Source: Branchiostoma floridae (Eukaryota; Chordata; Leptocardii; Amphioxiformes; Branchiostomatidae). Taken from it: DNA of 64,000 nt. Position 1 is the first letter of the stretch. Every line of letters begins with the position of its first letter. The stretch lies in contig NC_049997.1 in assembly GCF_000003815.2 (NCBI RefSeq), forward strand, positions 12,160,822 to 12,224,821. Reading direction: 5' to 3'. Both the position numbers and the translations under genes were made by a program. Shown one piece after another: positions 8,334 to 55,949 of this stretch. The notes under the pieces were generated by a model. That model saw nothing but the letters and a program-made list of their open reading frames with translations. It was not told where the DNA came from and did no database searches.

Positions 8334-8400
8334 CTACAAACTTCATTATCCCGTGTTAAAAATATTGTCCCGATCATTTCCAAACAGCTATTCGCTCATC

Positions 8401-10074
8401 ATGGTAAGCAGAGCTGAAACCAAGCAGTTCGCAGATGTGAAGTCGGGAGAAGATTCGACATACACCGATCAGCAAGACAATGTTGGCGACAGTGGAAAGA
8501 GTGACAAGAAACAGAAAGTGAAGAAACAGCACAGCTGTGAACAGTGCAACAAGCAATTCGGTCGACTCGATCATCTGAAGACTCATATGCGGACTCACAC
8601 AGGTGAGAAACCCTACAGGTGTGAGGAGTGCGGCAGGCAGTTTAGTCAAGGGAGTCATCTAAAGCAGCACATGAAGACTCACACCGGTGAGAAGCCGAAC
8701 GTTTGTAAGATTTGTCTGAAAAGTTTCGCACAGACAAGTGCTCTGAAGTCGCACATGAAAACCCACACGGGAGAAAAACTGTACAGGTGGANNNNNNNNN
8801 NNNNNNNNNNNNNNNNNNNNNNNNNNNNNNNNNNNNNNNNNNNNNNNNNNNNNNNNNNNNNNNNNNNNNNNNNNNNNNNNNNNNNNNNNNNNNNNNNNNN
8901 NNNNNNNNNNNNNNNNNNNNNNNNNNNNNNNNNNNNNNNNNNNNNNNNNNNNNNNNNNNNNNNNNNNNNNNNNNNNNNNNNNNNNNNNNNNNNNNNNNNN
9001 NNNNNNNNNNNNNNNNNNNNNNNNNNNNNNNNNNNNNNNNNNNNNNNNNNNNNNNNNNNNNNNNNNNNNNNNNNNNNNNNNNNNNNNNNNNNNNNNNNNN
9101 NNNNNNNNNNNNNNNNNNNNNNNNNNNNNNNNNNNNNNNNNNNNNNNNNNNNNNNNNNNNNNNNNNNNNNCAGCATGCGGTTTAGTCGGCTGGGTCATCT
9201 AAAGGCACACGTACGCACACATACCGGTGAGAAACCGTACACGTGTGACAAATGTAACAAAGGCTTCAGTCAGTTAGCTTATCTGACGACTCACATGCGG
9301 ACTCACACGGGTGAGAAGCCGTACCGGTGTGAGGAGTGCAGCAAACAGTTCACTACGCAGGGTGAGTTGACTATACATGTGCGAACTCACACCGGCGAGC
9401 GACCATACACATGTAAGGAATGCGGTTGGACTTTCAGTCAACGGAGTAACATGCGAACTCACATGCGGACTCACACAGGTGAGAAACCGCACAGATGTGA
9501 GGAATGTGGCAAACAGTTCTGTCTGTTGAGTGATCTGAAGAAACACATAAGGACTCACACTGGGGAAAAACCGTACTCGTGTGAAATTTGCAACAAAAGC
9601 TTTAGGGAGAAAGGCCATCTAACGATTCACAAGCGGACTCACACAGGGGAAAGCCCGTACAGGTGCGAGGAGTGCGGCAAGCAGTTCATCACACTCTCAC
9701 ACCTCAAGAGCCACGTGCGGGCACACACTGGCGAGAAACCGTACAAGTGCGAGCAGTGCAGCAGACAGTTCAGGGAGCTTTGTTCATTGAAAGCACACAT
9801 GAAAACTCACACAGGTGAGAAACCGTATAGTTGTGAGGAGTGCAGCAAGCAGTTCACTGTGATGTGTAGTCTGAAGAAACACATTCGGACACACACTGGC
9901 GAGAAACCGTACACGTGCGATGCGTGCAGCCGGCAGTTCAGTGAGCTGGGTCATCTGAAAACACACATGAGAACGCACACCGGTGAGAAACCGTATACCT
10001 GTGAGGAGTGTAGTAAGCAGTTTAGTCAGCTGTCTACCATGAAAACACACATGATGCGGGCCCACTCTTGCTAG
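8401..10074 (+). CDS. C2H2 (Krueppel-type) multi-zinc-finger protein, internal gap
   Basis: Single-exon frame from an ATG at 8401 (MVSRAETKQ) to a TAG at 10072. An upstream in-frame extension has no ATG, so 8401 is chosen. An acidic, charged leader of about 40 residues is followed by tandem C2H2 fingers of the C-x2-C-x12-H-x3-H form with TGEKPY linkers. Three complete fingers precede the N gap (8792-9170), one partial and ten complete follow it; the gap length fits four to five more fingers. The last finger has an extra residue in its histidine spacing (HMMRAH). At the left gap edge the frame reads YRW where YRC is expected, probably a one-base error at the contig end. No KRAB, SCAN or BTB domain is seen. 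By family it is a nuclear DNA-binding protein; the target is unknown. Confidence 0.9.
   Translation: MVSRAETKQFADVKSGEDSTYTDQQDNVGDSGKSDKKQKVKKQHSCEQCNKQFGRLDHLKTHMRTHTGEKPYRCEECGRQFSQGSHLKQHMKTHTGEKPNVCKICLKSFAQTSALKSHMKTHTGEKLYRWXXXXXXXXXXXXXXXXXXXXXXXXXXXXXXXXXXXXXXXXXXXXXXXXXXXXXXXXXXXXXXXXXXXXXXXXXXXXXXXXXXXXXXXXXXXXXXXXXXXXXXXXXXXXXXXXXXXXXXXXXXXXXXXSMRFSRLGHLKAHVRTHTGEKPYTCDKCNKGFSQLAYLTTHMRTHTGEKPYRCEECSKQFTTQGELTIHVRTHTGERPYTCKECGWTFSQRSNMRTHMRTHTGEKPHRCEECGKQFCLLSDLKKHIRTHTGEKPYSCEICNKSFREKGHLTIHKRTHTGESPYRCEECGKQFITLSHLKSHVRAHTGEKPYKCEQCSRQFRELCSLKAHMKTHTGEKPYSCEECSKQFTVMCSLKKHIRTHTGEKPYTCDACSRQFSELGHLKTHMRTHTGEKPYTCEECSKQFSQLSTMKTHMMRAHSC
8792..9170. other. Assembly gap (379 N) inside zinc-finger array
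   Basis: A sized gap within a tandem array of 84-bp finger repeats, where collapse or mis-sizing is common. The frame is the same on both sides if the length is taken literally, but the exact finger number cannot be trusted. Confidence 0.95.
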
Positions 10075-32936: not shown

Positions 32937-34549
32937 CTGGGTACCAAAATGCTACTGTTGGAGGAAGATGCTGGATATATACAAATTAATATACCAAGAT
33001 AAAGCAAGCATGTCCAGGACACATACATGTAAGATACATTATGACTTTCCAAGACCTACCCTACGACCATACATCCTTACATTCGTATCTAGAAAGATCC
33101 ACACACAGACAAACACACAACAAATATAACTCCATTTTTCATGGAGGTAAAAATAATATGTAAGGTCCATTTTGACATTTAGCAGGCACAATCACTAAAT
33201 ATGGTTACTTAATAAGTTAATATGATTATCATGTACTTCACTGTTGAGATGATGACACTAAGTATCATAGCTGACAAGACTACCCCACATGAATATGTGA
33301 AAAGTCAAAGTGCAAATCATACACACATTTACATATTATATGGTGTACGTTTTAACAATAATCATTGGCAAAGTCTAATATCAACCTGAAAACTTTGATT
33401 AAAAAACAACTACGTAACAGCAAACATTAACAAAAAGGCAGATGAATGGCAGCAATGTCCGATGTACATTTGATTTGTTAGCAGCCTTGAACAGCAATGC
33501 TTTGGTGCTAAAAATAACACTCAAATGGCACCAGTGCCTGAGGATAGTATGTACAGTAAGTACATCAATATAAGTTATGGGATGGTGTGAAGTCCAAATC
33601 TCCTACCTTAACATAAATTGTTTGTATGAATTACTGTATGAATTCCTAAGGCCTCATACTCTACCTGTCGAGTTATGATAGTAAAACTTGTAGCTAATCA
33701 ATTTGAAACAAGAAAAGTTGGAATGTGTACAAAACACATTTTTAAGATCTTTTCAATCACGCATTCAATTTCGAGCTCCTTATTTGCATATTAGTACTAA
33801 GATTCAGTCTTTGTGATAAGTTGTAGTGAGATTTTGAATATGAATCTACACACAACTGGCCAATATGACACAAAATTGGCACAATGACAGAAGAATCCTT
33901 GAAATTAGGATTTTTTCTCAAAAGTCTAATTTGCCAACCTAAGATCAAGTTCTTTCAACATGAAACTTAGGCATGTACATGTATCATGTTTCAAGTTACC
34001 AGCAAATAGAATGACTGCTATAGTTATGACACATACTAGTAACACAATTCATTATCATTGTGATTTTTCTTCCAGTGTCATTATCAGTAATTTCATCTTC
34101 CCCCTAGTCCCCCTAATTCCGTTAAAACCCCCATCCGTAATCATCTCACACTGCCAGCTTACGATTTCTCCACATTACCAGTTCTTAGACAAATCCGGCT
34201 TATTCGCTAATACGTCTGCCCGGAATTTCCCATAAACAAATTGCGCCAGACGGCATCACACGGTCCATTTACAACAATCAAGAACACGTCAGAAGCAAAA
34301 TGTTTGAACCTGCAACTTATCTCACTTTCTGCGTTTGTAAATTAAGGACAAAAGCTTGTGTGTTCTACATGGGGAAGTCGTTCTACTTGATCGGGATTGT
34401 CATCAGCGTAGCAGACATATTCATTGTCGGTTCTCAACCTTGAAGGGTATACCCGTCACGTATATTAATCCGCAGAATATTTTATATTCAAAATTACCTT
34501 CACAAGACAAAGTCCTCAAAGTAGTTTCCGAGCCTGATGGCGCATAGGG

Positions 34550-34800
34550 CGGCGCCCATCTCCATTTCAGTAGCCATGGGCCACACAACTTTGTGCAATC
34601 ACTACAGCAAGGGTCTAGTCTACTTGTAGTGGTGTGTATTTAACTACCATACTCTTTCCCGAATGCTGAGTGGTAAGCAGAGAAATCAGCGTATACCATT
34701 TTTAAGTCTTTGGTATGACTCGGCCGGGGATCGAACTCACGACCTACCAAATGCAAGGTGAACACTCTACGGTCTACCCACTCGGCCATCGCACCGGTCA
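34550..34800 (-). mobile_element. tRNA-derived SINE, copy 1
   Basis: On the minus strand it begins GACCGGTGCGATGGCCGAGT (A-box-like GGCCGAGTGGG) with GGTCGTGAGTTCGATCCCC (B box) about 45 bp later, then a non-tRNA body ending near GAGATGGGCGCC. The same order is seen at 50921-51212. Confidence 0.8.
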
Positions 34801-48367: not shown

Positions 48368-48371
48368 TTAA
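48368..48371. repeat. Left TTAA target-site duplication
   Basis: TTAA directly abuts the left terminal repeat; the right-hand twin is at 55946-55949. TTAA targets are typical of Kolobok and piggyBac elements. Confidence 0.85.
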
Positions 48372-48662
48372 AGCCCCCATGCAACGGCCTATGCGAATTT
48401 TGAGAAATAAATGAGGCTAACCATGTGTAACACGGAAATAAAGTCCTTCTTGACGAAGCGCCACCTATTTTGCACGCACAAAGCAAAAACTGCACCTCCG
48501 GCTCACATTTCTCAAAAGTGCGGCTGGACCGGAAGTGACGTCACACGGGGCATTCCCGGCACCGCGGGAAAAACATCAACACTTTTGCAGACGACATTTC
48601 TGTCTCAGCGTCAACTTTCACTTCCTTCCTTGTTGTTTCCGTCGTTATGTAATTTTTTCGTC

Positions 48663-51600
48663 ATGGTTAAACGCTGTGTGGCTTTTGGGTGTAGTAACAC
48701 GTCTCGGTTAGGTTTTAGTTTGCATAAATTCCCCCAAACTCCGTGGAGACGTCGTCAATGGGAGCGGTTCGTCCAGCGCCGAAGAGCACAGTGGACTGTA
48801 GGTGCCTGTTCCTACCTTTGCAGCAAACATTTCTCCGTGAAACAGTTTTATGGCGGGCTTGAAAGTCAATTCGGGCTGGACAGGCGGGCCAAGCTGCAGA
48901 AAACGGCCTGTCCGGATATCTTGGACGCGGCAGACGCAGACGGAAGTGCCGGGCGAGAAGGAGCGTCGTCTGCTCGCCGGTCAGCTGTCGAGAAGCTCAA
49001 CAATCACCGGGTAGGTGACATATTCCAACGAAATAATATCAGATCTATGGTAAACGACGAAAAATATATAAAAATAAGATATTGGTGTGTGTTGTATGTT
49101 TGAACAAACAAATAAAGGTAGCGTATCTACGAAATTAAGTGGCCCATGGGGGAGGGGGGCGCCGGCAAAATATGTAAACAAACATGCCTACGTCACGCTT
49201 GTTCCGTGAAACGCTGGCTTAAGTATGGGGTTAATTACATGACATATATCAACATGGCATTCACTGTCATCATATTTTCTGTTTTTGTAACTGAGCCCGT
49301 AAAAATGATGCACTCTGAGCTTACTTTAGTTTAGCTGATGTCTTAAATGTCATGTTGTAGGGTTATATTTTGTAGTTTTCTAGTTTGTAAATAGTTCTAT
49401 CCCTTCATCTTTCATACAGATAATTGCCGACCTGCTAGAGGATCATGTAAGTTGTTGTTTTCTATAGAATAAGTTTTGACAGTTTACTCATAAAGTGCAG
49501 GCAGTCTGGAATATACGAACATTTCTATTTTTGTTATTCTTGATGTATTGTGTTACTGAAAATGAACACATGTGCAGTACTTTGTTGAAACAATATTAAC
49601 TACATGTATTTAATGAGAAGAGGTCATTAAGTATTTCTTGCATTGCTTGGATGACAGTAGGTTTGTACCTACAATGTACCAAACAATAAAATTTGCAATA
49701 AAATTGTTATCATCAATTTGCTGTAGGAGAGTGAGGCAAGAGGCACTGTTGAAATTGAGGTAAGTGAATTACAGATATCTAGATAGCAACTCGTTTATTT
49801 TCTGAGACAATCTTTTTTGGTGGCCGGTTTTGAATGTAACATGATATAACGTTACATACTGAGTTGTTATGGCATGTGATTGTTCATCAAGATATGTATC
49901 ACAAAATTATTGTCATTTTATTAGAAATATTATGACAGATGCTTCATGCCCACCATTTTTTGACTTAATGATTATGCAACAAATCATAAATTTTCTCCAT
50001 ATTAAGGATGAGCAGCTAGAAAGTGCACAGGATGCTGGTCACATGGATGTTGGAGTGCAGACAAAACAATCAGTCAGAAACCAAGGTAAAGATTATGGTG
50101 TAGTTTGGTTTATAACATTGTTAAAATGTATTGTGACAACTATTTGGGAATGGAAGAGTTGGTCAACCCTCTTTTTCTTAAACCTTCCTAACAAATTAAA
50201 ATAAAGCACTTTCTTTTCTTCTGTATTACAGGCACCCAGGTTACACCAGGAAAGGCTGATGTGGGTATTCAGTGTATGCTGCTGTGCCCAGAACATCATA
50301 CCCACATGCAAGAGGATGAAGAAGAGGAGGAAGAGGAAGACGAGGAAGAGGAAGATGATGATGATGATGAGTACTTCCCTACAGAGGAGGAGCTCTTGGG
50401 GGCTAAGAGGTTTGCCATGTCAATTTTGTAAAAACACAATACTATTATAGTTCCTTTTCTCACTGTAGCCACAGTTGTCACTTTTTCCCTCGTAATATTA
50501 TCAGGTTTATTTACACAATCTATTCTTTGCTTTCATTGCCAAATACATGTAGTGATGATGAGGACTTTGACCTTGAATGGGAAACACATGAGGGAAACAC
50601 AGACACACCACCGCCACCACATCGTGAGAGGAAGTACCTTGTGTTTGAAAGTGCTCTGCTACAACTCTTTACCTTGTGTCTGCTTTGTGGCGGAGCAGTG
50701 AACTTGACACTTGACACGGCAGGCTCTTTCTTGCAAGTGACACAAGTTTGCAAGTTATGCAAGTTTGTGAGGAAATGGTCTAGCCAACCATTCATCGGCA
50801 ACACACCGGCAGGAAACCTCCTGATGTCAGCGGCTATTCTTTTTGCAGGTATTATGATTTACTGTTGTAAGATGTATTACAACATTCATCTTTACCTCAC
50901 ATTCTATACCGTTTGTTTCTTGACCGGTGCAATGGCCTAGTGGTTAGAGTGTTCGCCTTGCATTCGGTAGGTCGTGAGTTCGAACCCCGGCCGGGTCATA
51001 CCAAAGACTTTAAAAATGGTACATGCTGCTTTCTCAGCTTAGCACTCAGCAATAAAGAGAAAGAGTATGGAAGTTAAACACACATCACTACTAGCGGACC
51101 AGCCCCCTGCTGTAGTGGCATAGTGTATGTGTGGCCCAAGGGCTACTCGAAATGGAGATGGGCGCCACCCCAAAAGCATCTGCGCAGATATAAGGGTAAC
51201 TTTAACTAACTTAACTTATACCGTTTGTAAAGTGTGGCTTAAATATAATTCTAAAACTGTTAAGTACATAAAATTTATAAACAGTTATATATGAGAATAT
51301 TTGAATATAGGAGAATATTTCCAGTCATTGTCACCTAACAGTAACAAATCAATGTCTTTGTAGGTGCAATTCCCAAACAAGCGCTGCACATGTTCCGGCA
51401 TTTGAGTTGCCAGTGTGTCTCCATCAGGACTTTCTTCCGTCATCAGCGCCTTTACCTGCACTCTGCAATCCAGAATGTGTGGCAGGCACAGCAGGATGGG
51501 CTACTCAACTCAGCTGTACAGCCGCTCATCCTGGGCGGTGATGGGAGGGCGGACAGCCCAGGCCACTCAGCAAAATTTGGGTCATACACATTGATGGACT

Positions 51601-53707
51601 TGAGAACCAGCAAGATTCTCACTATTCAGTTGGTTCAGGTAAGCTAAAATGTTTTTCTTTTTTTTTTTGCATCAAATTTTTTGTACCTGCATGCGTTTAA
51701 ACAATCATATCCATTTGCAGTGAGTTTCCTTAGGAAGTATTCAGTGTTCTTTAGACTTCATTACTGCTCACTTTGTTATGAAAGCCATGTCCTGCGATTG
51801 TTATAATCAAACTACTACTATAACATCTATCTTTTCATAGAGCAATGAAGTTGCTGGCGGAAGCAATAACATGGAGAAGGAAGGGTTGGTGAGGGCAGTG
51901 GCATTCCTACAGGCCAGGGGGTTACAGATCTCCACCCTAGTGACTGATCGCCACCTACAAGTTGCAAAATGGGTCCGGGAAAATCTGCCAGCCACCCGGC
52001 ATCTGTATGACATCTGGCACATCGCTAAAGGTTAGCATTTTTTAGATATTTATTTTGGCTCACCACAATCTCTGATGAAGCTTTGAATAGGATTCAATAA
52101 ATAATAACCATGAAACATGTACAATCCATAGACATTTTTTAACATTGGCGTTTTTTGGCGTTGTACTACCAGGGATCAGGAAGAAACTGAGTGCACTAGG
52201 AAGACAAAAGGAGTGCGAGCTTGTCATCGCCTGGATCCAATCCATAATAAACCACCTGTACTGGTGCGCGACAACTACCAGGGAGGGAGAGGGAGAGCTT
52301 TTAGCAGCAAAGTGGGCGTCACTAGACAACCACCTTCACAATGTGCACAGGGGACACAGTCAGCTGTTCCCCCGGTGTGAACATGGTAGAGTGGCGAGAA
52401 GGAGGCAGTGGCTTCAACCAAGTAAGACTTGTTGAGCTATTGTTAGGCGCGAATTCAGCAATTTGTGATATACAGAACATTATTCATTTATTGAGATGGT
52501 TTTGTATGTAAGACAAAGTGAATGTGCATATGATCCAAATACAAATTATTGAAGTATATTTATTTTTCAATCGATTCTGGACTGTGGTAGTACAACTACT
52601 ATTGCATCTGCATAATTCAATTTCCATCAATATTTTTTTTCTGTTTCAGACACAAAGGCAAGTGTCAAGCTGACTGATATCATCAACAAGAAAGCTTTGC
52701 TGCGGGACATCAAGAAGTTGAGCAACAAGTATCAAACGGCAACGCTGGAGGCATTCCACTCACTGATAAACCATTTTGCACCAAAATGGGCCTCATTTTC
52801 TTACTGGGGTATGTTGTCAAGGTGAGTTCTACTTCCAAGATGAAGACAACAAATTAAAACTAAAATAAAATGTTATCCTCCATAAACATCAAATTTCTCA
52901 CTTTATAAACATTTGTATTCTAGATTGTACTGATCTGTTTCTTTTTTACAATAAAGATTTTAAACAACAACAACAACAACACTAAACTACCAGGTTATGT
53001 AAATATGCCATTTTCAATAACTGGTGGTTTAACTTTAAGGGATTTCTAGTGTAGAGACCCCCACCCCCACCCTCCATGTATGCAGAGTTTATATATATTG
53101 TTCTACATTGTATTGGCAGACTTTGGGATTGGAGATATTGTACATTTTTTTCAGGTTGGTGTAATTATGTAGCCTAGTGTAATTATGTAAGTAGATGTTA
53201 CATATAACCTGTTTTGCTTTTGTATCAAATTGTACTCTACTCCTCTCACAGGCTGTACTTAGCAGTACTTCACAGCAATGAGAACTGTGGACGGCCCCAG
53301 CTGGAAACAAAAGAGGGTGACAAGGTCTTCAAACTTCGCTTCAAGAAGTTCAAGAAGGCTTGCACTGTGCAAGAGGTAGTGGGAGACTGTACATTTGGTA
53401 AGGACTACTGGTACTTAAATTGATTGTAATTGTTTTGAATTTATGGAGAATTGTTAGGTCACTCTATAGCTAGTTTATGTACACAAGAAAAAATATATAA
53501 CACAAATTCAGCTGTCCAATTCTCTTCTTTCTGTAAAATGCAGACTATGTGACTGTCCTTATGGAGGAAACCATCAGGATCTGTGATGCTGGTGAGGAAG
53601 CACATCTTGTTCAACCGCCACCAACACTGGCCAGTGCTTTTGACAGACCAGAGAAGGAAGCTGCAGTGGATGCGCACAGAACACGGTTTGGCAGAAATGA
53701 TGACTAA
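48663..53707 (+). CDS. THAP-domain transposase, Kolobok-like, 12 exons, 718 aa
   Basis: Exons: 48663-49010, 49420-49446, 49727-49759, 50007-50085, 50232-50409, 50553-50848, 51364-51638, 51841-52030, 52173-52421, 52650-52821, 53252-53397, 53544-53707. All introns are GT-AG and every phase matches. The ATG at 48663 begins MVKRCVAFGCS, the start of a THAP zinc finger. Its zinc ligands are C5, C10, C53 and H56, with an AVPTIF-like box (TACPDIL) near 82-87. An Asp/Glu-rich stretch follows at about 190-215, then two CxxC pairs (C264/C267, C288/C291). The core has GGDGRADSPGHSAK (D380), VTDRHLQVAKW (D448), YDIWH (the DxxH signature, 469-472) and TLEAFH (E592), a candidate DDE triad. By family it would bind the element ends through THAP and catalyse cut-and-paste transposition in the nucleus. 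Catalytic assignment is by motif only. Confidence 0.88.
50921..51212 (+). mobile_element. tRNA-derived SINE, copy 3, nested in transposase intron 6
   Basis: GACCGGTGCAATGGCCTAGT with A-box-like GGCCTAGTGG, then GGTCGTGAGTTCGAACCCC (B box) and a body with GGAGATGGGCGCC, ending in AAGGGTAACTTTAACTAACT. It lies wholly between the donor at 50849 and the acceptor at 51363, so it does not break the gene. It is head-to-tail the same as 34550-34800. Confidence 0.85.
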
Positions 53708-53746
53708 GGAAACAGTTAGACCCTAATTCCCTTTGACTCCAGTGAA

Positions 53747-55724
53747 TTAATCTAAAGGTGGATATTTGAATCCTGTATACTGTGCTGACGGGAAGGTCTC
53801 TCTAATCTTCTTGACCGCACAGGCAGGGTTGATAACTCTTATCCTGGCTCCTAGCCACCCCCAACACCACCTCACCAACTGTCGGTACGCAACGTATCTG
53901 TATCTCCTAAATGAAACAAGTTTAACTTTGTTATAGAATACATGCAGTGAAGTTACTGTTCCCCATCTGTGGTCGTCTTTAGTAAGATGAAGTGCTGCTA
54001 ACGCAGTGGACTACTATACAATTAGCAACCACTTCTAATGTTAACACTGAACCGTTTAAAGTACTGTGTTGAAATGTGCAGGCTGCTAATAGATGAACAG
54101 AGTACTAGTAATAGAATGGTGGATTTCTATAGGTTACTTTGTTAATGATCATATGAACAATGTCATTGTCATCCCTGTCATAGAAACTGTACACTGGTTA
54201 CCTATGAAGCAATGTAAACAAATGTTCCATAGGATTATCAACATTTGTACATGATACATAATGTTATATGTACATGTTTTTGACTGCTTATGTTACTTCC
54301 AATGTTAACACTGAACTTCTTGAAATACTGTATAAAATATAGAGGCTGCTAAATATGTTATTGCCGGTTAATGTCTGAGTAATACAGTAATAAAGTATAA
54401 AGAGTAAAAGAGTATTATTGATAGTCTAGAGTAGATGGTGAGTCTTGTGAGTCTATGAGTATGGTGGATATCTATAGATTAGTATCAATTCAATGTAACG
54501 CCCTTCGTAGAAACAGTATACCGATTGTCTGTACATACAAGTTCCTTATCAACATTTGTATATGTATATAAGTTTGTTTCAAGAATTGTTAACAAACATT
54601 TCCTGACTGGTCAGCTTTATGATTCGGTTGTTATAATAAAGCTTTTCATCACTTGACAAATGATGACATGGCATGCATGTACAGTACAATAAAATGATGA
54701 CATGGCATGCATGTACAGTACAATAAAATCAATTGGCTGATGAACAACAAATTGACCCATTTCAGTATTGATTAATGTATTGGGTATGTTGACAAATTGA
54801 TTGGTATATTGATTGATATATTGATTGGTTGATTAATTGATTGGTTGATTGATTGATTGATTGGGTATTTAAATTTCATTCATTGTGTTTGATGGATTGA
54901 CAGCTTACTCATGAGTTGGATCTTGACTGGGCCCATACTCCTGTCTATATTGAAAGTAAGCACACTGAAGACACCAGATGTCAAGGCAGATAGACCTAAA
55001 CCCAGGGTGCAGGGTAATGCAGTCTGGGACAGGTGTCACAAGCTGGTGCCTTTTGTCATTTATCGGTGACAGCTCATGGCAGCAAATGCACTCTGCCGCT
55101 GTGGGCATGATAACGCAGTGGCCACATGTACACCTGAAACACCACATCATACAGGTATGGAACTTTTCCCCTAATCACTTCATTATTTCAAATTCCAAAT
55201 AAGCACAGGAAATTTACTTGGGATACATGAAATAAGTTGAATTTATTCACTTCACAACATTCAACATGTGGACATTATCCGATGCACTGTGATGGTAGCG
55301 AAAAACTATAAACTTTTGCAAATTGAACAAGCCCGTACGCGGGTGGGAGGGGGGCGGAATGGTTCCACCGATTTCGTGCCATGGGGACTAAACTGCGAAA
55401 ATGAGGCTCAAAGCAAAATGCTACCACGAAGTTGCACTATTCAGGGTCCCATTACAAAATAATGTAAAGATATAGACTCTATACAGACAGCGTAAAAAAA
55501 TTGCGCACAAAATTCACTTGGAACAAACTATTATGACGTGAGTTTGGTGGGCGCGGTATCGAGTACAGTACACACCAGGTCAATGAGGTCAGCCGCTCCG
55601 CATTTCCACGATCTTCTACTTCTGCCGTGTCGCTGTCATCCTCCCCTGCCTCGGGCTCGAATTGATACGGCAAAAACGGCACAGCCTGGTCGAGATCGGT
55701 CGTGTCACGATCTGCGCCCGCCAT
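53747..55724 (-). CDS. Stand-alone P2X7 C-terminal (ballast) domain protein, 3 exons, 177 aa
   Basis: Exons in transcript order: 55724-55576, 55133-54909, 53906-53747 (stop at 53749-53747). Junctions use CTG|GTGTGT with TTTCAG, and CATGA|GTAAGC with ATTTAG; phases agree. The ATG at 55724 opens a 49-residue acidic leader (EDDSDTAEVEDRG). The domain then starts at WCTCGHCVIMPT (50-61), with CICCHEL (65-71), CITLHPGFRSICL (88-100), YVAYRQLVRWCWGWL and a final YTGFKYPPLD. These are the landmarks of the P2X7 cytoplasmic ballast domain, which in the receptor binds zinc and guanine nucleotide. No P2X channel part is present upstream, and the promoter region (55725-55945) is inside the transposon. 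Its role is unknown; it could assist transposition or be cargo. An alternative exon-2 acceptor near 55063-55071 is less likely because it adds residues before the WC motif. Confidence 0.88.
54661..54728. repeat. 34-bp tandem duplication inside the transposon
   Basis: TGATGACATGGCATGCATGT and the following ACAGTACAATAAAA occur twice in a row. Each copy contributes an AATAAA, which could serve as poly(A) signal for the transposase transcript. Confidence 0.9.
54760..54866. repeat. (ATTG/ATTGATTGGT)n low-complexity tract
   Basis: Imperfect ATTG tandem tract in the intron between ballast exons 2 and 3. Confidence 0.85.
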
Positions 55725-55945
55725 TTTGGCTACCGTCTTGGCGAGGAGGCGGGAGTACCCCGTGTGACGTCACATGACGTCATCCACCAACTTTGCCGAC
55801 CTCGGGGAAACCCGATACGTTTGGCGCGCTGTGTTAGAAACGACGGCGCGATGGGGGCCGCGGTGCCTATGGTTGATAACTCCCACCGGCAATCTCACAA
55901 ATAAGCAAAGAAAATAAAACTTTTCAAACCCGTTGCACTGGGGCT

Positions 55946-55949
55946 TTAA
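55946..55949. repeat. Right TTAA target-site duplication
   Basis: TTAA immediately outside the right terminal repeat, matching 48368-48371. Confidence 0.85.

Follow-up and report, generated by a model that had tools for sequence, protein, structure and literature searches.

A probable Kol0-lineage Kolobok transposon in the lancelet Branchiostoma floridae carries a P2X7-type ballast gene beside its THAP transposase gene

Kolobok DNA transposons of the Kol0 lineage encode both a transposase and a second protein, KolX, as described by Kojima and Bao in 2022 (PubMed Central (PMC) number PMC9587614). KolX matches the cytoplasmic ballast fold of the P2X7 receptor, and these authors trace P2X7 to a fusion in which KolX was joined to a P2X4-like gene and its domain would have become the tail of the channel; they argue further that stand-alone ballast proteins are the KolX of Kolobok elements, and that nanor may be a domesticated KolX (PMC9587614). 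Stand-alone ballast proteins range from sponges to fish according to Rump et al. 2020 (PMC7016195), who give the contacts of rat P2X7 with guanosine diphosphate (GDP) as R546, H547, R574, R578 and K583, of which only R546 and R578 are retained beyond deuterostomes. The THAP transposase of the P element requires guanosine triphosphate (GTP), which is held in an insertion domain of its own (PMC7776569). Here a stretch of 64,000 nucleotides of Branchiostoma floridae (contig NC_049997.1, positions 12,160,822 to 12,224,821, forward strand; hereafter the window) was analyzed, and positions 48372-55945 of it very probably constitute a complete Kol0-lineage Kolobok DNA transposon of the lancelet with its KolX gene.

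The element is flanked by TTAA, 14 of its 16 terminal bases match as inverted ends, its termini are AG...CT, and it encloses two convergent predicted genes, a transposase on the plus strand and a ballast gene (KolX) on the minus strand. In 200 random 8-kb sequences generated with a first-order Markov model, not one TTAA-flanked inverted pair of at least 14/16, at least 2.5 kb apart, was found. An earlier sequence-only reading had described the inverted ends, the TTAA on both sides and the two multi-exon genes, and it proved correct to the base. The features, in window coordinates, are as follows.

48368..48371, no strand: left TTAA of the target-site duplication, flanking the left end
48372..48387, plus strand: left terminal inverted repeat, 16 bp, AG start, AGCCCCCATGCAACGG; the same end occurs at other genomic loci
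48663..53707, plus strand: predicted THAP-domain DDE transposase gene, 12 exons, 718 aa (spliced model, Pfam, DDE motifs)
48663-49010, 49420-49446, 49727-49759, 50007-50085, 50232-50409, 50553-50848, plus strand: transposase exons 1-6 (predicted spliced model)
51364-51638, 51841-52030, 52173-52421, 52650-52821, 53252-53397, 53544-53707, plus strand: transposase exons 7-12 (predicted spliced model)
53747..53906, minus strand: KolX exon 3, with the stop codon (predicted gene model)
54909..55133, minus strand: KolX exon 2, with the zinc-site cysteines CxCxxC ... CxCC ... C (predicted gene model)
55576..55724, minus strand: KolX exon 1, with the ATG, a PYQFEPE motif and an acidic stretch (predicted gene model)
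55930..55945, minus strand: right terminal inverted repeat, 16 bp, CT end on the plus strand, AGCCCCAGTGCAACGG in minus-strand orientation (55945 to 55930)
55946..55949, no strand: right TTAA of the target-site duplication, flanking the right end

The genome searched comprised 513,431,437 bases in 431 contigs, the window lying on the contig labelled C19. The 16-base end pattern matched 16 times genome-wide, as opposed to 2 matches for the reversed control, and TTAA stood directly before 15 of the 16 matches. Four copies defined by this pattern had both ends (8 ends) and the remaining eight matches were single ends, although a pattern search misses copies whose second end diverges beyond the pattern. 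In the sequence-only reading, other copies with the same ends that never carry the ballast gene would have pointed to a chance insertion, which is not what was found: KolX was present in two of the four, the window copy and a copy on C202 (locus L035), and a third, a 4.8-kb copy on C2, retained pieces of the transposase and a vestige of KolX exon 1 (E 5e-5), exons 2 and 3 not being detected in it. The fourth, on C4, is a 235-bp deletion product and barely more than two ends.

The C202 copy carries both genes within its own TTAA pair at a site different from that of the window. Similarity between the two starts and stops at the TTAA ends, with no further flank match among the matches listed, and because the flanks differ the C202 copy is a separate insertion and not another allele. 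Over 6263 aligned sites the copies differ by 22 substitutions (0.35%), with an additional 54 indel columns, and the C202 transposase has an internal deletion of about 1.3 kb (window 51472-52746). When sorted by site class, the differences (1/534 sites in KolX, 5/1453 in the transposase, 16/4276 in non-coding sequence) do not discriminate, and active selection in the youngest copies was not retained as a conclusion. Near-identical copies at different sites were observed in families A, B, C and E of those delimited below, which indicates that several such elements are young and leaves KolX open to study in its native role. These data show that the two genes moved together recently and establish the anatomy and TTAA specificity of an element that is well formed, recently mobile and correctly recognized from its sequence as a vehicle for the ballast domain. 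A transposase intron contains (at about 50924-51173) a dispersed repeat some 250 bp long, recognized via the C202 copy, and an inverted copy of this repeat, 83% alike, lies at 34547-34800 of the window; it resembles a short interspersed element (SINE) derived from tRNA, but ARAGORN reported no tRNA in the element.

The sequence-only reading had also proposed that convergent transposase-ballast pairs be sought across the genome. The 40 places matched by the transposase core were clustered into 29 loci, and two ballast searches combined gave 31 loci. Thirteen pairs no more than 7 kb apart were obtained (13/29 transposase loci, 13/31 ballast loci), and all thirteen were convergent; 16 transposase and 18 ballast loci stood unpaired with this query. 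The thirteen pairs are not independent and were sorted, by our own delimitation, into nine families, A to I. In the inverted-end search, which covered 20 loci and the window, TTAA-bounded inverted ends were found in ten (the window, L021, L022, L023, L028, L029, L035, L048, L051 and L052), several of the eleven others being gapped or not reaching both ends. KolX exons 2 and 3, or the single-exon equivalent, lie inside nine of these ten copies, the exception being L048; in L021, L022, L023, L028, L029, L051 and L052, which belong to other families than the window copy, the ends around KolX start with AG or AC. Copies bounded by TTAA at both ends around KolX are thereby known from five of the nine families (A, B, C, E and F). 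Layout varies among them. In family E (L050 5798-6936, L051 and L052) the convergent transposase gene has the KolX exons nested in its last intron, a nesting which differs from the layout of family A. The KolX-carrying copies of family B (L021 3286-9792 and L022 376-6860) are 98.9% identical between the two sites and have terminal inverted repeats of about 350 bp, as opposed to short ends elsewhere, so that long-repeat and short-repeat forms coexist.

For the 18 unpaired ballast loci, the query recovered no transposase core at a distance of up to 100 kb, and six of them were read in detail. L028 and L052 are TTAA-bounded copies in which the transposase is partly deleted and its end exons are kept. 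In L025, L027, L033 and L034 no transposase was found over 9.9 kb with two queries; these ballast-only loci belong to another subfamily (FRHAAYR type) and are candidates for domesticated or orphan KolX, the ballast gene of L033 being interrupted by a stop codon. Among the transposase matches, a Kolobok-like core at G000:C2:2785219-2785914 is part of an open frame of 872 aa; on C2 the ballast searches matched nothing within 10 Mb of it, and it may represent a further lineage or else a domesticated gene.

With respect to the proteins, all 11 introns of the predicted transposase model have GT-AG borders. Pfam recovered the THAP domain at E 1.2e-11, whereas the matches to DDE_Tnp_ISL3 and MULE were sub-threshold only. 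In the family alignment D380 and D448 are conserved in 9/9 families, and E592 is present in all five families in which that stretch was recovered, the stretch not being recovered in the other four. Membership in piggyBac, which has the TTAA target in common with Kolobok, was rejected, as Pfam at E 0.1 gave no piggyBac transposase domain.

The predicted KolX protein is a stand-alone ballast protein of 177 aa encoded by three exons. It matched the Pfam family P2RX7_C at E 6.2e-14, and its relatives in the PDB were P2X7 chains only (4/4 distinct sequences), with a best phmmer E of 1.9e-7 for the single protein and 1.2e-16 with a profile of lancelet ballast proteins; these matches indicate that the second protein has the ballast fold expected of Kol0. 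Of the seven zinc-site cysteines of the P2X7 ballast domain, five align by phmmer with C51, C53, C56, C88 and C154 of KolX, while the CC pair (C67, C68) meets the P2X7 pair only with a gap of about five residues, not placed by phmmer. Equivalents of the GDP contacts R546 and R578 occur in 9/9 lancelet KolX families, that of H547 in 2/9, and those of R574 and K583 in 0/9. The ballast protein is under purifying selection, as demonstrated by the comparison of families A and C (non-synonymous distance, dN, 0.172; synonymous distance, dS, 1.42; ratio about 0.12; 127 codons). Synonymous sites are saturated in most other between-family pairs (A-E and B-F infinite, C-E 2.48, D-G 3.96). Within families, the sequences C10 and C1 differ by 1 synonymous and 2 non-synonymous changes and are too similar to be informative. 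Across the nine families, transposase and KolX protein distances correlate (Mantel r 0.67, permutation p 0.0008).

Taken together, the element fits Kol0 on every feature tested, and these data show that its ballast gene is KolX, a gene of the transposon rather than a trapped host gene. The assignment to Kolobok made in the sequence-only reading is supported by the TTAA that flanks the window copy left and right and stands at nearly all genomic ends, and by AG...CT termini, which fit the 5'-RR and YY-3' pattern of Kolobok (PMC9587614).

Several observations weigh against this interpretation. The Kol0 label is a probable one that draws jointly on TTAA, the AG...CT ends, THAP-DDE and KolX. The 16 of 29 transposase loci with no ballast gene found nearby imply that KolX is not strictly required, or that it was lost or missed there. 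The two gene trees conflict, KolX grouping families A and C (support 86) and the transposase grouping C and E (support 100); the transposase topology was not rejected by the KolX data (approximately unbiased (AU) test, 0.149), and exchange of KolX among families A, C and E is therefore not claimed. An AlphaFold model of KolX (alignment A2) had a mean predicted local distance difference test (pLDDT) score of 38.9, too low to be of use, so the ballast fold of KolX is shown at the level of sequence only. Empty sites were sought by joining the flanks of the window and C202 copies, and 0/2 gave a match spanning the junction, the matches of the joined flanks being confined to their own flanks and to parts of dispersed repeats, among the 40 of 482 candidates scored in one of the two flank lists.

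P2X receptor exons gave 8 matches in this genome; seven lie near 13.75 Mb of C11, and the eighth near 7.12 Mb of C19. There was no ballast match on C11, and the sole ballast match on C19 is that of the window itself, 5 Mb from the P2X exon; in this exon-by-exon search there was accordingly no sign of a P2X7-like fusion. Elsewhere in the window, positions 8353-10074 hold a long C2H2 zinc-finger open frame that includes a run of masked bases (N).

By analogy with its family, the THAP-DDE transposase would bind the ends and move the element by cut-and-paste into TTAA. KolX may in turn bind the transposase or the transposon DNA, for example in targeting, assembly or nuclear entry, and we lean, by a modest degree, towards a trans-acting, zinc-stabilized accessory subunit of this kind. 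In PIF/Harbinger elements a second protein acts in targeting, assembly or nuclear entry. An unlikely alternative, to which we nonetheless give some weight, is that KolX counters host silencing or DNA-repair checks and stands outside the chemistry of transposition: its being separate, small, conserved and absent at many related transposase loci would suit a helpful but dispensable factor, but nuclear zinc-binding adaptors more often act on DNA or transposase. Equally improbable is the reverse direction of transfer, in which a Kolobok ancestor captured a ballast gene of an early animal host and the P2X7 domain came from that host gene. Ballast-only loci such as L025 and L027 and the sponge-to-fish range of stand-alone ballast proteins (PMC7016195) would agree with it; however, the ballast genes with an intact neighbor are transposon genes in this genome, no ballast match lies closer than 5 Mb to the P2X exons, and Kojima and Bao treat the stand-alone proteins as Kolobok KolX (PMC9587614). 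Less probable again is that KolX supplies guanine-nucleotide binding in trans to the THAP transposase, like the built-in GTP domain of the P element; were it so, the GDP-binding tail of P2X7 would be a relic of the transposon's cofactor subunit. That a transposon once landed next to a host ballast gene, or engulfed one, is scarcely credible and was rejected, since, for all the 18 of 31 ballast matches lacking a transposase core and the four ballast-only loci among them, the C202 copy carries both genes elsewhere, the pairs are convergent in 13/13 cases across nine families, TTAA-bounded ends enclose KolX in five of these, and two of the 18 unpaired loci (L028 and L052) are deletion copies retaining transposase end exons.

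The view that KolX belongs to a Kol0-type transposon agrees with published work. The sequence-only reading had taken the link between ballast domain and transposon to be undescribed, but it was published in 2022 and is not new here (PMC9587614); its suggestion that the receptor domain descends from a transposon protein matches the conclusion of Kojima and Bao, and to that extent holds without being novel. Searches of the PMC literature for KolX together with Kolobok returned nothing beyond that paper, those for Kolobok with P2X7 elsewhere only one passing mention of each, and those for Kolobok with amphioxus only one paper, on a caecilian Hox cluster; Repbase may already catalogue these lancelet elements. 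What is added is a lancelet catalogue and the persistence of two of the five GDP-contact residues, both arginines, in 9/9 families, and the element lends independent, base-resolution support, in a second invertebrate chordate setting, to the view already in print that the ballast domain of P2X7 is a transposon protein.

Compared with known systems, the P element and THAP9 are likewise THAP-domain DNA transposases, although P elements leave duplications of 8 bp and have the GTP-binding insertion within the transposase (PMC7776569), whereas the window element uses TTAA and has a separate KolX. KolobokP is distinguished by long terminal direct repeats and a His-Me nuclease; membership in it was rejected, as the second protein here is P2RX7_C instead and no terminal direct repeat was seen among the 20 of 47 repeat families listed. 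The P2X7 ballast domain and KolX are alike over the zinc and GDP-site region, with the two arginine equivalents retained, but KolX has no channel domain and stands alone with an N-terminal part of its own. It shares this stand-alone ballast domain and short N-terminal part with nanor and its relatives (PTHR36981; PMC7016195); unlike the proteins of those accounts, lancelet KolX sits inside a transposon, and the main text of Rump et al. 2020 has 0 occurrences of 'transpos', 'amphioxus' or 'branchiostoma' (PMC7016195). Closest of all is Kol0, with Kolobok-1_XT as its type, which has the same TTAA target, 5'-RR...YY-3' ends and KolX as second protein, and whose DDD/E transposase probably has its counterpart in the predicted THAP transposase of the window element (PMC9587614). 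In the available portion of that account Kol0 is reported from vertebrates, annelids, cnidarians and sponges, Branchiostoma is mentioned for KolobokP only, and neither intron structure nor a convergent or nested layout appears (PMC9587614); to these the present work adds a Kol0-like set from the lancelet, with introns and with both layouts.

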